Assembly: GCF_963676275.1 (NCBI RefSeq)
Contig: NZ_OY781091.1
Location: forward strand, 3,884,775 to 3,948,774
DNA length: 64,000 bases
Direction of reading: 5' to 3'
From: an uncultured Cohaesibacter sp.
Lineage (GTDB): Bacteria > Pseudomonadota > Alphaproteobacteria > Rhizobiales > Cohaesibacteraceae
Shown here: positions 13,610 to 21,475 of the stretch, in pieces
How positions within the stretch are numbered: the stretch's first letter is position 1
Layout of the letters: the number at the start of each line of letters is the position of its first letter
Notes under the pieces: generated by a model
What the model saw: only the letters and a program-made list of their open reading frames with translations
The model's database searches: none
Told to the model about the DNA's origin: nothing
Position numbers and translations under genes: made by a program

Positions 13610-14407
13610 CTAGCCCGCCGTATAGCCACCGTCAGCATACAGGATGTGACCGGTGTAGAAATCGCAAGCCTTGGAGGCCAGGAACAGCAAAGGACCGGCA
13701 AGGTCTTCCGGCTCGCCCAGACGACCGATTGGCACGCGGGACAGGAAGCCGGCACGAACAGCATTGGCATTCTCGTTATCTTCGAACATCCAAGCTGTCA
13801 GCGGAGAGCGGAACACGGTCGGAGCGATCGCATTGACGGTGATACCATCCTTGCCTAGCTCGCAACCAAGTGCCTTGACGATGCCGTCGACTGCGGATTT
13901 GGAAGCGCAATAGGCAGAATAGCCAGCCGGATGACCCAGAAGGCCACGAGCCGAAGACATCAGCACAATCTTGCCGCCATCACCCTGCTTTTTCATCTGC
14001 GCCGCAGCCGCACGGGAAAGCAGCCAGCTCTGGTTGACGTTGGCATCCATCACGGCTTCGAAGGTGGCGGGCTCCATCTCGGTGATCGGGGCAACCTTGT
14101 TCATGCCCGAAGCCACCACCAGAATATCCAGACGGCCATAAGCCGCAACGGCTTTGGCAACCAGATCATTACAGACTTCTTCATTGGTCGGACGGGAATT
14201 GATGGCGGTCACATCCGCCCCCATTTCCTTGCATTCCTTGGAAATCTCGTCCAGCGCACCCTGATTGCCAGCGACAAGAACCAGCTTGCAGCCTGCACCG
14301 GCAAGAATACGGGCAGCGACCATGCCGAAAGCGCCAGATGCGCCGGTGATCAGAGCCACATTGTCTTTCACATCAAACATGGAAAGTGGATTAGCCATTA
14401 CATTCAT
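13610..14407 (-). CDS. short-chain dehydrogenase/reductase (SDR)
   Basis: 265 residues, classical SDR. TGASGAFG (near 20-27) is the cofactor motif, VVASGMN replaces the usual NNAG, the catalytic Ser is in LMSSARG and the catalytic pair in YCASK. It ends in GHILYADGGYTAG. The ATG at 14407 is four bases from the upstream cupin stop; a second ATG (14398) is possible. It belongs to the cupin-SDR-dehydrogenase operon and would oxidise or reduce a hydroxy/keto group of the pathway substrate. Two different alcohol dehydrogenases in one operon suggest stereoisomers or two steps; this is a guess. Confidence 0.9.
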   Translation of the reverse strand: MNVMANPLSMFDVKDNVALITGASGAFGMVAARILAGAGCKLVLVAGNQGALDEISKECKEMGADVTAINSRPTNEEVCNDLVAKAVAAYGRLDILVVASGMNKVAPITEMEPATFEAVMDANVNQSWLLSRAAAAQMKKQGDGGKIVLMSSARGLLGHPAGYSAYCASKSAVDGIVKALGCELGKDGITVNAIAPTVFRSPLTAWMFEDNENANAVRAGFLSRVPIGRLGEPEDLAGPLLFLASKACDFYTGHILYADGGYTAG

Positions 14408-16883: not shown

Positions 16884-17019
16884 CGGCTACTCCTATTTCC
16901 TCCGCTGTAGCACCTTCAGGTCCCGAAAAGTCGTATTCCCATACGCACTTTCGCAGGCCATTCTTCTGACTGCTTACAGTCGACCTATTATTCTCAATGT
17001 GCCGGCAATCAAAATCCAC

Positions 17020-17035
17020 ATTACGGTACAAGCGA
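17020..17035 (+). promoter_or_regulatory. shared 16-mer, copy before the CoA-transferase operon
   Basis: ATTACGGTACAAGCGA, 137 bases upstream of the atoD start. A degenerate direct repeat (CACATTACGGTACAA then CACATTTCGGTCAAC) spaced about 21 bases suggests two half-sites on one face of the helix. Confidence 0.5.
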
Positions 17036-17244
17036 ACCACATTTCGGTCAACCTGCAAAAGCGACAAAAGAGAGAACAAATTGCTCAATTCCCGCGTCAA
17101 TTCACCGCTTTTTGCGCCACAGATCCGATGTCGGCGCCTCGATAAGCAGCGCTGGCACCAACCGCAGCGGCAATGAAAATTATTACGACAGAACAATTAG
17201 TTACTTAACCTTACGAAGTTTTTCGTAGAAACTCTCAAGCGCCA

Positions 17245-17285
17245 TAAAAAAACCGCTCCGCACATCATTGGTGCGAAACGGTTTT
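17245..17285 (-). terminator. terminator of the CHAD-ParA-CYTH operon
   Basis: AAAACCG (17249-17255) pairs with CGGTTTT (17279-17285), with an inner CGCAC/GTGCG stem. The A run from 17246 gives the leftward T tract. It starts 47 bases after the CYTH stop. Confidence 0.85.
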
Positions 17286-17331
17286 GCCTCCCCTTCATCC
17301 AGAACGCCCCAAGGGCCATCAATCCCGGCAC

Positions 17332-17835
17332 CTAGCCAGACGGAAAGCCCTTTACCGCGAGAGCCTTGTTCTTGTAGCCCTTGTTGCCCGTCACATCCTT
17401 GCCGAACCAGTCGGGCGCAACAAAAGCCTTGGCAGCTTGCCGTGAAGCAAATTCCACCTCCACCAGCAGCAAGCCCTTAAGCGCACCATGAAAGATGTCC
17501 AGCTCATAGCGAAGCCCATCCTCAAGCTCCCCGATATACCGCGTCTTCTCGACCCGACAGCCCGATGTTGCAGGCCAGAAGCTGTCAAACTGCGCCTCGC
17601 TGATGGCCACTTCTATTTCCCGGCGCGCCAGTTCTCCATCGGATTTCAGCGTCATGAAAAGAGAGGTTCCAGACGCATTGATCTTCTTGCGCAGCCTGAT
17701 TTCGACGGAATCCTCCGCCGCCGTCAGATAGCCCTGCGATACGCCCACAGCTTCAAGCCCGGCAAGATCAGGCAGCCGATCAACGAGGAATTTGCGCTCG
17801 ATCTCGACGGGCATCTTGTCTTCGCTGGCAGTCAT
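17332..17835 (-). CDS. CYTH-domain protein (inorganic triphosphatase-like)
   Basis: 167 residues. VEIERKFLV at 10-18 contains the intact EXEXK signature (Glu11, Glu13, Lys15) that binds divalent metal in CYTH tunnels; further acidic/basic strand pairs (VEIRLRKK, LFMTLKSDGELARREIEV, LVEVEF) fit the fold. Single-domain bacterial CYTH proteins are typically tripolyphosphatases or bind polyphosphate-like ligands. Its ATG shares one base with the ParA stop, so it is translationally coupled to ParA and through it to CHAD. A catalytic role on tripolyphosphate or the ends of polyphosphate is likely from the family, not proven. Confidence 0.9.
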   Translation of the reverse strand: MTASEDKMPVEIERKFLVDRLPDLAGLEAVGVSQGYLTAAEDSVEIRLRKKINASGTSLFMTLKSDGELARREIEVAISEAQFDSFWPATSGCRVEKTRYIGELEDGLRYELDIFHGALKGLLLVEVEFASRQAAKAFVAPDWFGKDVTGNKGYKNKALAVKGFPSG

Positions 17836-18584
17836 CAGAGATCAACTTTCTTTTTGATGTCGCGATACAGCCCCTTATAGGCCTTGGATGCCGCACTGGC
17901 CGGAGCACTGGCCAGAACTGGAGCCCGATGCACGCCCATGCGCTCGACATCCGAGGCAAATGGCACCTGCGCCGAAAGAAACTGCTTCTTATATTGCCCG
18001 GACAATTCCTCCATCAGTTCCCCATGCAGCGACTTGACCGACTGTACCATGGAAAAGAAAGCGGCAAGCTTTTTGAGCGGGATCTTGTTAGAGCGGAAAA
18101 AATCGACCAGTTGCTCGAAGGTGCGCTGGGAAAGGGTGGTGGGAATGACCGGCACCAGAATAACGTCAGACGCCTTGAAAACACTTTCCGAGAGGGCTGA
18201 AATATTGGGCGGGCAATCAAGCAGGATGACGTCATAATCCTTCTTGACCGCCTTCAATGCCTTCTTCAGCCGTGAGCGACTATTCTTCATGCGCGACAGG
18301 AACACATCGAAATTGCGAAAGCTCATATTGGCGGGCAGAATATCGAGATTGTCGTAATTGCTGCCCCGAATGGATTTGGTAAAGCGCTCCACATCCTTGA
18401 AAAAGCGCTCATCGGTCAGTTTCTTGGATGGCTTGACCCTGAAATAGAAGCCCGAAGCCCCTTGCGGGTCGAGATCGCAAAGCAGCACCCTTTTCCCCGC
18501 ATCAGCCAGAGCATAGGCCAGATTGACCGATGTCGCGGTCTTGCCGACACCGCCCTTGTTGGAATAGCAGGCAATGATTTTCAT
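17835..18584 (-). CDS. ParA/MinD-family ATPase between CHAD and CYTH genes
   Basis: 249 residues. It opens with the deviant Walker A motif SNKGGVGKTA (signature Lys10, catalytic Lys15), then CDLDPQGAS (Walker A') and VILLDCPPNISAL (Walker B). These are marks of ParA-type positioning ATPases that dimerise on ATP and bind DNA nonspecifically. No parB gene or parS-like site is nearby. The start overlaps the CHAD stop by four bases (ATGA) and its stop overlaps the CYTH start. An orphan ParA locked between two polyphosphate-linked domains suggests it positions a polyphosphate cargo; this is inference. Confidence 0.93.
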   Translation of the reverse strand: MKIIACYSNKGGVGKTATSVNLAYALADAGKRVLLCDLDPQGASGFYFRVKPSKKLTDERFFKDVERFTKSIRGSNYDNLDILPANMSFRNFDVFLSRMKNSRSRLKKALKAVKKDYDVILLDCPPNISALSESVFKASDVILVPVIPTTLSQRTFEQLVDFFRSNKIPLKKLAAFFSMVQSVKSLHGELMEELSGQYKKQFLSAQVPFASDVERMGVHRAPVLASAPASAASKAYKGLYRDIKKKVDL

Positions 18585-20128
18585 TCTTTCCCCTCCGCGC
18601 TCCGGAACAGCGCCTTGAAGCTTTGCCGGGTTTCCTCGCTGTCAAAGTGCGCAAAGGCATCAAGAACCAATGCCCGTTGCTCGCCCTGTCTGTGATGCAA
18701 AACGGCGATCAGGGCACCCACGCTCTGCGCAATGGACATTTGCGTCGCCTTGTTGCGAAATTTCTGCCCGGCGACAAAGGCGGAAAGCGCATCAATCTGC
18801 ACAGAGCAGTCATTGAAGGCCCCGAGATTATCCTGCAGCCGCTTCATCGACTTGATCAGGCATCGGACATCTTCACGCGGAAACAGGGGGGTGAAAAATT
18901 CCATCAAATACCGCAGCTTCTTGCAATGGATGCGCAGCGCATGCACCTCGCTGTCGTCGCTGCCTGCATCAAGCCCTCTGGCAATCTTGCAGATCTTGCG
19001 ATAGCGCTTCCAGATCAGACCGCAGGCATAGTCATGCGCGCCAAGATCACCATTAGGCCCCTTTTCCAGCCGCTCCGGCGCATTGAAGAGATCATCAAGC
19101 GACTGCATCTCCGCCTGATAGGCATCGCCGATCAGGTGATCGGCAAGCTGCAAGGCGGCCTCCTCCCGCTCCCTTGCAAAAAGGGAGAACATTTCATTGA
19201 GCCCCTCATGCAGTGGTGCTGGCACCAGATCAAAAAAGCACTGCTTTTCCATTAGATAGACATCAAGATCGCGCAGTTTGCCAGTCTTGACCATCAGCTT
19301 GGAAAAGCGTTTTTTAAGGTCGCGCGTCTGCGCATCCGAATAAACACCCCGAAACAGGCTGAGCACGGAGCGAATCTTGCGCAGAGCTATGCGATAGTCA
19401 TGCAGGAATTCGCTATCAATATCATTGACGATCCCCTTCTCATGCACACGAGCAGCAGGCAGATAGGCCGCTATGATATCCGTTGCCACATCAAAGGCAG
19501 GCTCGTCCTGCCCAAGCGCGATTTCCGGCTTGAACACAGCCGAAGGAAAGGACAGGCAAAGGCCTGAGAAATAGCCCCGAAGATCGGTTTCCCCGCCCCC
19601 TATGCGAAATAGCGCCTCGCGCACCAGCGCCACAGCCTTGCCATATCCGCGCACCGGATGCAGAAAGGCAATAAGACCGATTGCGCCTCCGATCATGCGG
19701 GTTTCAACAAAGTTGATCCTGATGTGTATCTTGCCCTCGGCATCGACCAGCGCCATGCGGGCCGAACAAATCTGCAAGCGACAGATGGGCGTCAGCGCCC
19801 TCAGATCAGCAGGCCCCTTGAGCCGTTTTTGTGCCTTGAGCGCCTTGCGCACGCGCCCCTTGGGCAGATCGCGCAAGAAGCCACCCTCTGCAGGCCCTTT
19901 CTGGCTAATCGGCTCGCCATCACAACCAAGCAGCTTAAGGCGACCATGGCTGGCAAACAGGAACTGCCCCGACCGCAGCAGCGGCAGATGAAACATGTCC
20001 AGCAGAACGGCATCCGCCAGATCGGTCTGATCTGAACAGACCGGTTTCAGCTTGCCGAAATCTTCTCCCGCCAGACAATCCAGAGACCGGTTGGGAATGA
20101 ATATGAGACTATCATCAATCTGCGCCAT
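18581..20128 (-). CDS. CHAD-domain protein with degenerate CYTH-like N-terminus
   Basis: 515 residues. Residues about 210-505 are a CHAD helical domain with both basic repeats: FLHDYRIALRKIRSVLSLF (His243, Arg246, Arg250, Arg253) and VHALRIHCKKLRYLMEFF, followed by LQDNLGAFND. CHAD domains bind polyphosphate and go to polyphosphate granules. Residues about 50-180 have strand patterns like the CYTH part of CYTH-CHAD fusions (LKGPADLRALTPICRLQICSARMALVDAEG in position), but no EXEXK motif, so that half is probably inactive. It is the first gene of the three-gene coupled operon. It could be the adaptor linking granules to the ParA ATPase. Confidence 0.88.
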   Translation of the reverse strand: MAQIDDSLIFIPNRSLDCLAGEDFGKLKPVCSDQTDLADAVLLDMFHLPLLRSGQFLFASHGRLKLLGCDGEPISQKGPAEGGFLRDLPKGRVRKALKAQKRLKGPADLRALTPICRLQICSARMALVDAEGKIHIRINFVETRMIGGAIGLIAFLHPVRGYGKAVALVREALFRIGGGETDLRGYFSGLCLSFPSAVFKPEIALGQDEPAFDVATDIIAAYLPAARVHEKGIVNDIDSEFLHDYRIALRKIRSVLSLFRGVYSDAQTRDLKKRFSKLMVKTGKLRDLDVYLMEKQCFFDLVPAPLHEGLNEMFSLFAREREEAALQLADHLIGDAYQAEMQSLDDLFNAPERLEKGPNGDLGAHDYACGLIWKRYRKICKIARGLDAGSDDSEVHALRIHCKKLRYLMEFFTPLFPREDVRCLIKSMKRLQDNLGAFNDCSVQIDALSAFVAGQKFRNKATQMSIAQSVGALIAVLHHRQGEQRALVLDAFAHFDSEETRQSFKALFRSAEGKE

Positions 20129-20256
20129 GGCCTTATAGTTTCATGGAAGCGCTAAGGGTGCAAGCAGCCAGCAAGCGCACAATGTGCATTTCCTCAGAAA
20201 GTGACAGCCACAACCAAAATCCCCCACCCTTCGGCAAGCAGAGACCAACAACAAAC

Positions 20257-20284
20257 AAGGCACCCGACACATGCCGGATGCCTT
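20257..20284 (-). terminator. hairpin downstream of galK
   Basis: AAGGCA (20257-20262) pairs with TGCCTT (20279-20284), continued inward by CCG/CGG with one mismatch; leftward sequence is GTTTGTTGTTGG. A second perfect hairpin (CATGCCG 20328-20334 with CGGCATG 20340-20346) lies just after the galK stop. Confidence 0.65.
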
Positions 20285-20365
20285 GCTAAATTCTTGCTCA
20301 TTTTGCCCAAAGGCCGATACAGGATGCCATGCCGACAAGCGGCATGCCCTCGCTCAGCGGCGAGG

Positions 20366-21475
20366 CTAGGTCACAGCCAGAATGGAAGCCTTTTCGAAGC
20401 GCGCCACGATGCGTTTGCAAAATTCATCAGCCTTGTCTTTTTCAATCAGCGCCACGACAGAGCCGCCCCAGCCGCCACCGGTTTGCCGCGCCCCCAAAGC
20501 ACCAAAGGAAAGAGCGGTTTCGGCAATCAGGTCGGTTTCGGCGACCGTGATCTGATAATCGTCCCTCTGGGATGCATGGCTGGCAATCATCAGTTCGCCA
20601 AACCTTGCCATATCATGCGCCTTGAGCGCCGCCACCCCTTCCAGCACATGCTGGTTATCATTGATGATATGACGCGCCCTTCTGTTCAAAGGTTCGGGGA
20701 TGGCATTGATCCGGTCAAGGTCAGACGGCCCCAGATCGCTGAGCATCTCCACCTGCAATGCGGCGCAGGCAGCCTTGCATTCGGCCACGCGGGTCGCATA
20801 GCCATCCTCGCCGCCATCAACGAGCTGATGGCTGACCCCCGAAGCAATGATGACAAAGGCATGATCGGCCGATGTCGTCACCAGTTCATAGGCCAGCGTG
20901 TTGGTATTGAGGAACATGGCAACGCCCGGATCGCCAACAGAGGATGCGAACTGGTCCATGATGCCGCAGGGCATGCCGACAAAGTCATTCTCCACCGCAC
21001 GCGCCTTGACGGCCACATCGACAGCGCTCATCTGACGACCATAAAGCGCCAGCGCTGCCTTGATGGACACCACTTCCAGCGCCGCGGAACTGGAAAGCCC
21101 TGCCCCCATCGGCAAGGTCGTCTCAAGCGCGACACAGAGGCCGGTCCGGGCAACATCTTCCGCAGCAACCGCTTTGAGGCAGCCCAACAGATAATCGGAC
21201 CAGCGCCCCTGTCGCCCATCCTCGATATTGCGTATCTCGGTTTCAGCGAAAGTGTCGGAATAGGCCTCGATTACGCCCGGCTTGTCACCCTTGCCCAAGG
21301 CAATGGAAACGCCGAGCCCGCGCAGGGCCATCGGCAGCACGAAGCCACCATTATAATCGGTATGCTCTCCCAGCAGATTGACCCGCCCGGGTGAATAGGC
21401 CACCACATCGGGCGCCAGACCGAAATGCTTCTCAAAGGCTGCCCGTACAGATGCGGTTTCTCTTTCCTCAGCCAT
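20366..21475 (-). CDS. galK: galactokinase
   Basis: 369 residues. The galactokinase signature GRVNLLGEHTDYNGG is at about 30-44 and the GHMP ATP loop PMGAGLSSSAALE near 122; the third motif GARQTGGGWGGSVVAL is near 337. It phosphorylates galactose to galactose 1-phosphate, the first committed step of the Leloir pathway. It is the last gene of galE-galT-galK; the galT stop is nine bases upstream. Two hairpins follow. Confidence 0.96.
   Translation of the reverse strand: MAEERETASVRAAFEKHFGLAPDVVAYSPGRVNLLGEHTDYNGGFVLPMALRGLGVSIALGKGDKPGVIEAYSDTFAETEIRNIEDGRQGRWSDYLLGCLKAVAAEDVARTGLCVALETTLPMGAGLSSSAALEVVSIKAALALYGRQMSAVDVAVKARAVENDFVGMPCGIMDQFASSVGDPGVAMFLNTNTLAYELVTTSADHAFVIIASGVSHQLVDGGEDGYATRVAECKAACAALQVEMLSDLGPSDLDRINAIPEPLNRRARHIINDNQHVLEGVAALKAHDMARFGELMIASHASQRDDYQITVAETDLIAETALSFGALGARQTGGGWGGSVVALIEKDKADEFCKRIVARFEKASILAVT

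Follow-up and report, generated by a model that had tools for sequence, protein, structure and literature searches.

We describe here a group of three genes from an uncultured Cohaesibacter sp. (contig NZ_OY781091.1 of assembly GCF_963676275.1) that links a ParA-family ATPase to polyphosphate. The genes are located in a stretch of 64,000 nucleotides, hereafter the window (positions 3,884,775 to 3,948,774 of the contig), and encode a CHAD protein, a ParA-type ATPase and a CYTH protein. The link is well supported at the sequence level, because the CHAD and ParA genes are paired across genomes, the CHAD domain has the residues that contact polyphosphate, the CHAD protein contains a TTM fold, the CYTH protein resembles NeuTTM and polyphosphate kinase (PPK) genes occur among the neighbors. 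We see about an even chance that the genes encode a system for handling polyphosphate granules that is driven by the ATPase and that positions or partitions them, a role that we infer from the family to which the ATPase belongs.

Conservation of the CHAD-ParA Gene Pair

Relatives were identified in a scan of GTDB genome contigs based on ParA, and the best 80 of 104 loci (L018-L097) were analyzed. The loci were selected by ParA similarity alone, with no part played by the neighbors, and 79 of the 80 have a CHAD gene immediately upstream of ParA in the same orientation; the single locus in which tblastn found no CHAD gene was L095. A CYTH gene was located immediately downstream of ParA in 40 of the 80 loci, and both CHAD and CYTH were present in all ten congeneric loci examined. 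According to their titles, the loci represent Rhodobacteraceae and other alphaproteobacteria, the betaproteobacterial Alcaligenaceae, Gammaproteobacteria, Desulfobulbales-type bacteria and Pontiella. A spacing of -4, corresponding to an ATGA overlap, was observed in 53 of 89 CHAD-ParA pairs, and the next most common neighbor family beyond CHAD, ParA and CYTH was found at only 17 of the 80 loci. Since CYTH is optional, the gene comparisons indicate that CHAD and ParA are the conserved core and CYTH is a frequent addition. The first-pass annotation of the window had presented the three genes as a unit and suggested a search for their order in other genomes: the order is conserved in several classes and the CHAD-ParA core held, whereas the third gene did not prove to be a constant member.

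Because the 80 loci are best hits, even draws of genomes were also made. A ParA match at E 1e-60 was obtained in 3 of 241 alphaproteobacterial genomes, and one at E 1e-45 in 60 of 397 genomes from the phylum, with few candidates scored per genome. Among 62 loci fetched from these draws, a model of the CHAD subfamily detected an adjoining CHAD gene in nine. With the ParA of the window included, CHAD adjoined ParA in 7/7 loci with scores of at least 285 bits and in 3/56 below 285 bits. In a tree of 147 ParA proteins, 82 members of a clade of 83 were CHAD-linked (support 0.905), and seven more CHAD-linked proteins were scattered within a clade of 60. The bit-score split and the tree thus identify the CHAD-linked ParA proteins as a real subfamily of a wider ParA family, in which most of the drawn members had no CHAD gene found adjoining. 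A CHAD gene anywhere in the genome was recorded in 50 of 60 genomes with a wider-family ParA and in 160 of 337 others (Fisher p 2e-7, kinship ignored), and this co-occurrence lends weak support to the link. The evolutionary distances of CHAD and ParA co-vary (r 0.735, 0/500 permutations, 75 pairs), which is explained in part by shared ancestry. From the gene pairing and the co-varying distances we infer that ParA binds the CHAD protein.

In L146, L160, L162, L163, L166-L168 and similar loci, ParA proteins of the wider family, which shares a VE.MG..R.P segment, adjoin genes that look by eye like truA and cysM. No CHAD gene was found beside these ParA genes, and they were not counted as members.

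The CHAD and CYTH Proteins

The Pfam CHAD model (PF05235, E 8e-56) spans residues 218-448 of the CHAD protein, and the structural model of the domain fits the Chlorobium CHAD structure solved with polyphosphate. Residues H243, R246, R250, R286, R406 and Y407 match all six residues mutated in the central site of CtCHAD (Chlorobium tepidum, Q8KE09). By this alignment the domain keeps its central polyphosphate-contact residues, and polyphosphate is a likely ligand; the predicted protein resembles CtCHAD and the phosins in both its fold and these residues.

The N-terminal domain has no Pfam match, and the best structural matches to its model (mean predicted local distance difference test score, pLDDT, 88.8) are TTM enzymes. 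No EXEXK motif was recognized: the first strand contains no column in which E or K is invariant, or nearly so, among 53 sequences. The invariant residues of the domain are instead D44, L57, R110, K133 and G161. On the basis of the model, this TTM/CYTH-fold domain is probably a pseudo-enzyme, as anticipated in the first-pass annotation, which had noticed an apparently dead CYTH-like N-terminus. YgiF in E. coli (5A60) has the same arrangement, with TTM at the N-terminus and CHAD at the C-terminus. It is, however, an active polyphosphatase (PMC6537752; papers cited by PMC number are represented here by excerpts), whereas in our protein the motif is lost and the TTM enzyme is encoded by a separate gene.

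For the CYTH protein, the Pfam model PF01928 gave a match at only E 0.0045, below the Pfam cut-off, while the chains 3TYP and 2FBL of NE1496 (NeuTTM) were matched at E 4e-49 and 1e-48, and E11, E13, K15, R71, R99, E126 and E128 were identical in all 41 CYTH proteins. NeuTTM is a specific inorganic triphosphatase (PMC3440374), and the CYTH protein is by similarity a probable inorganic tripolyphosphatase of the NeuTTM type. The first-pass annotation had stated that CHAD and CYTH domains bind or process polyphosphate or triphosphate, and polyphosphate is supported here as a likely ligand.

Some loci deviate from the common pattern. In the more distant CHAD-ParA loci L135, L193 and L194, CYTH adjoins ParA on the opposite strand, and CYTH may therefore have joined more than once. 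The CYTH gene in L021:6758-7323 and the CHAD gene in L026:4375-6004 are each split across two frames and represent pseudogenes or assembly errors. In L055:807-2336, on a contig from a metagenome-assembled genome, H243, R246 and R250 of CHAD are replaced by N, C and C, respectively, beside an intact ParA frame, indicating decay or a sequencing error. The genome of the window also contains a second, weak CHAD match (L017, C1:2793463-2793792, 25.2 bits) in an open frame of 383 amino acids.

The ParA-Type ATPase

K10, K15 and D39 are identical in all 81 ParA proteins and T16 in 80 of them; the signature lysine of the deviant Walker A motif and the catalytic aspartate of ParA/MinD (A/D) ATPases are thus present. 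Going by these positions, ParA retains the residues needed to bind and hydrolyze ATP. Both this activity and the binding of polyphosphate by CHAD are predicted from conserved residues with experimental precedent elsewhere. The domain calls made earlier, including the intact deviant Walker A and the intact EXEXK of CYTH, agree with the Pfam and 3TYP/2FBL matches and with the residue conservation.

The Soj/ParA proteins of ParABS systems (8RAY, 6IUB, 1WCV) match the sequence across the ATPase and share its catalytic residues. They differ in that no ParB is adjacent here, parS is not convincing and PRNVRL of 8RAY and 1WCV is replaced by PFASDV. A usual-type ParA encoded elsewhere in the genome (L002, PRNVRVSEAPSYGKP) retains PRNVRVSE. 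Other basic positions in the operon ParA are conserved, namely K184 and R/K215 in 81/81 and R220 in 80/81 proteins, and these could stand in for the lost DNA-binding arginine. The two ParB_N matches of the genome are both far from the window, and the only parS match in the window, at 14364, has three mismatches (shuffles mean 0.22). The first-pass annotation had likewise reported neither a ParB nor a parS-like site.

The loop after DPQG reads FRVKPSKK, with R49 in 80/81, K51 in 81/81 and K55 in 78/81 proteins. Excerpts from a study of HpParA describe the docking of a ParB peptide at the corresponding loop (GFRRDKIDYD), which is poorly conserved among ParA proteins. Since the loop is nearly invariant in our set, it is plausible that it meets a fixed partner. 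K227 and K230 of HpParA probably correspond to F209 and D212 here; this rests on a motif, as the alignment to the HpParA chain ends at residue 149, and it was not used. A role in anti-phage defence was also considered and rejected, since ParA gave only P-loop matches to PDC-M28B.

Polyphosphate and Phosphate Genes in the Neighborhood

A PPK1 gene is located upstream of CHAD in divergent orientation, 238-531 bases away, in 7 of the 80 loci, and PPK2 precedes CHAD on the same strand in one locus, L038. The genome of the window, a single contig of 5.03 Mb, encodes PPK1 and two PPK2 proteins. PPK content was tested in 46 carrier genomes out of 80: PPK1 was identified in 32, and the remaining 14 all have PPK2, which was counted in carriers only.

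Other genes related to phosphate were seen at individual loci. A gene of the NUDIX type comes after CYTH or ParA in L037, L042, L045, L047, L078 and L090, and could be a fourth operon member in some lineages. In the CHAD-ParA locus L147 (3354-5000), the gene after ParA encodes a PhoU domain together with an APH-family phosphotransferase domain, and the neighbors of CHAD-ParA in L136 include a histidine phosphatase.

Hypotheses for the Role of the ATPase

In the mechanism that we propose, the CHAD protein would sit on polyphosphate granules and be recognized by the ParA dimer, perhaps through the TTM-like domain and the FRVKPSKK loop. It would then be the adaptor between granule and ATPase that the first-pass annotation had suggested. 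ATP turnover would free the contact between ParA and CHAD, whereby granules could be spread, moved or divided among the daughter cells, and CYTH would clear the tripolyphosphate that arises in granule turnover. Since the usual DNA-binding segment is replaced, ParA may use other basic residues (R/K215, R220, K184) to work against the nucleoid, or may work against another surface. The most economical version is that ParA acts on polyphosphate-bound CHAD as McdA acts on McdB-coated carboxysomes. More tentatively, and at slightly less than an even chance, we suggest that several classes of bacteria have a dedicated ATP-driven system for positioning or partitioning granules, in which the pseudo-TTM-CHAD partner reads the polymer and the surface is possibly not nucleoid DNA.

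Several observations weigh against this proposal. With the D60A site of 8RAY aligned to D39 and thereby fixing the numbering of the chain, R238 of MxParA, the replacement of which by E abolishes DNA binding (PMC12462528), aligns without gaps with D212, a position with D or E in 77/81 ParA proteins. Known ParA/MinD partners have a positively charged, disordered N-terminus (PMC10241942). No conserved basic N-terminus was found in the CHAD proteins, the first 25 residues of which have a mean net charge of -0.62 (range -7 to +10, n=80, a few rows truncated), and the CHAD protein of the window is ordered from about residue 10 in the AlphaFold2 model. The replaced segment and the missing basic tail argue against a simple nucleoid ratchet; they call for caution, and another matrix or a regulatory role may apply. 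The PPK1 neighbors come mostly from one lineage, six being of the Desulfobulbales or Desulfobacterales type and one unplaced, and PPK1 is no more common in the carriers (32/46) than in the even class draw (165/241). The operon is accessory in the genus, with an orthologue of at least 77% identity in 11 of 18 genomes, and no CHAD gene was found beside ParA in 53 of the 62 drawn relatives, some of which are on short contigs. Finally, a granule pellet from P. aeruginosa held only one of two CHAD proteins (PMC9239181).

The main rival explanation, which we consider rather unlikely, is a regulatory ATPase. It would act as a nucleotide switch, loading CHAD, CYTH or a kinase onto polyphosphate or unloading it, and would thereby match polymer synthesis, polymer breakdown or the assembly of granules to cellular energy status. 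The replaced DNA-binding segment and a CHAD protein without a ParB-like tail would fit such a switch, as would the phosphate enzymes among the neighbors (CYTH, PPK1, PPK2, NUDIX-type, the histidine phosphatase in L136 and the PhoU-domain protein in L147). Yet we know of no soluble ParA that acts as a metabolic switch on a storage polymer, which counts against this explanation. The ParA/MinD family is moreover described as an organizer of genetic and protein cargos (PMC10241942).

We also considered the possibility that ParA serves another cargo, such as the chromosome or another protein complex, and that CHAD merely couples this cargo to the phosphate state. The L002 ParA adjoins a ParB_N match, so that the operon ParA is an extra one, and many ParA relatives have no CHAD neighbor. 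However, apart from CYTH no neighbor is nearly as constant as CHAD, no ParB_N adjoins the operon ParA and the window has no convincing parS, and we regard this explanation as improbable. Less probable still is a housekeeping cluster of translation-coupled genes, in which an ATPase and a phosphatase with unrelated tasks have been spread together by horizontal transfer. It would account for the patchy distribution (3/241 genomes in the even class draw) and for the accessory status in the genus, but not for a CHAD and ParA pair that persists despite changes in the third gene and in the flanks, or for distances that co-vary.

Relation to Known Systems

As in the ParA/MinD positioning systems, a conserved gene for a putative partner adjoins the ATPase. 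The granule-positioning proposal is closest to McdA/McdB, in which a ParA-family ATPase and a cargo-binding partner act on a large cell body, the carboxysome (PMC13052382, PMC10241942). The differences are that the cargo would here be a polyphosphate granule, that a folded TTM-CHAD protein without a basic disordered N-terminus would act as the partner and that the usual DNA-binding segment is replaced. AlgP in Pseudomonas aeruginosa also acts in the organization and spacing of polyphosphate granules (PMC9239181, PMC13052382), but is a histone H1-like DNA binder with a need for ATP that is listed as unknown (PMC13052382).

No ParA-CHAD polyphosphate system was found in the open-licence full-text literature, preprints excluded, in line with the earlier remark that no such system had been described. 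That remark must be qualified by a conserved folD-ppk-parA-CHAD group in Acidithiobacillus, the nearest case, which is comparable by its gene neighborhood only; in the excerpts, parA is explained by plasmid partition and given no polyphosphate role (PMC10892726). The words polyphosphate and CHAD are absent from the text of a 2023 paper on ParA/MinD cargos (PMC10241942). In the excerpts of a 2025 review of organelle positioning, AlgP is the sole entry for polyphosphate granules in the table, and the proteins that place these granules in Caulobacter are said not to have been identified (PMC13052382).

We regard the genes as a ParA-family system whose partner is new and whose cargo is probably new as well. 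The conserved pair provides named genes that can be deleted or tagged in cultured bacteria to address the placement and inheritance of polyphosphate granules. If our proposal is correct, an inorganic polymer granule joins the cargos of the ParA family and CHAD proteins gain a cellular task; if positioning is wrong, a ParA-type ATPase is still tied to polyphosphate.

Gene Organization in the Window

The coordinates and frames of the three overlapping genes (Table 1) are exactly those of the first-pass annotation.

Table 1. Features of the CHAD-ParA-CYTH operon, with positions counted in the window.
Feature	Position	Strand	Basis or remark
CHAD protein, 515 amino acids	18581..20128	minus	PF05235 E 8e-56; AlphaFold2 model pLDDT 92.9
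TTM/CYTH-fold N-terminal domain of CHAD protein, about residues 1-200	19529..20128	minus	Without EXEXK
CHAD domain, residues 202-511	18596..19525	minus	Six CtCHAD polyphosphate-contact residues matched
ParA-type ATPase, 249 amino acids	17835..18584	minus	AAA_31 (PF13614) E 9e-42; catalytic residues kept
Deviant Walker A KGGVGKT, ParA residues 10-16	18537..18557	minus	Sequence and conservation
CYTH/TTM protein, 167 amino acids	17332..17835	minus	3TYP E 4e-49 / 2FBL E 1e-48
EIERK (EXEXK), CYTH residues 11-15	17791..17805	minus	E11, E13, K15 identical 41/41
ATGA overlap, CHAD stop (TGA) and ParA start (ATG)	18581..18584	minus	Sequence
TGATG overlap, ParA stop (TGA) and CYTH start (ATG)	17833..17837	minus	Sequence
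Terminator-like hairpin and U-tract after CYTH	17249..17285	minus	15-pair stem
Terminator-like hairpin between upstream gal genes and CHAD	20254..20287	minus	15-pair stem, T-rich tail

A pattern scan of positions 17000-20700 found no sigma-70-type promoter. The mean best score for a Pho box in 74 regions upstream of CHAD was 8.81 out of 14, as compared to 8.61 in shuffled regions; scores of at least 11 were obtained in 5/74 regions and in 4/370 shuffled ones, a slight excess in related loci. By eye, the operon is flanked by galactose genes upstream and CoA-transferase-like genes downstream, with no evident link to it. A stretch of 102 nucleotides at the hairpin after CYTH has a folding energy of -39.6 kcal/mol (z -2.98). 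Since terminator-like hairpins bound the genes on both sides, CHAD, ParA and CYTH look like a single transcription unit.
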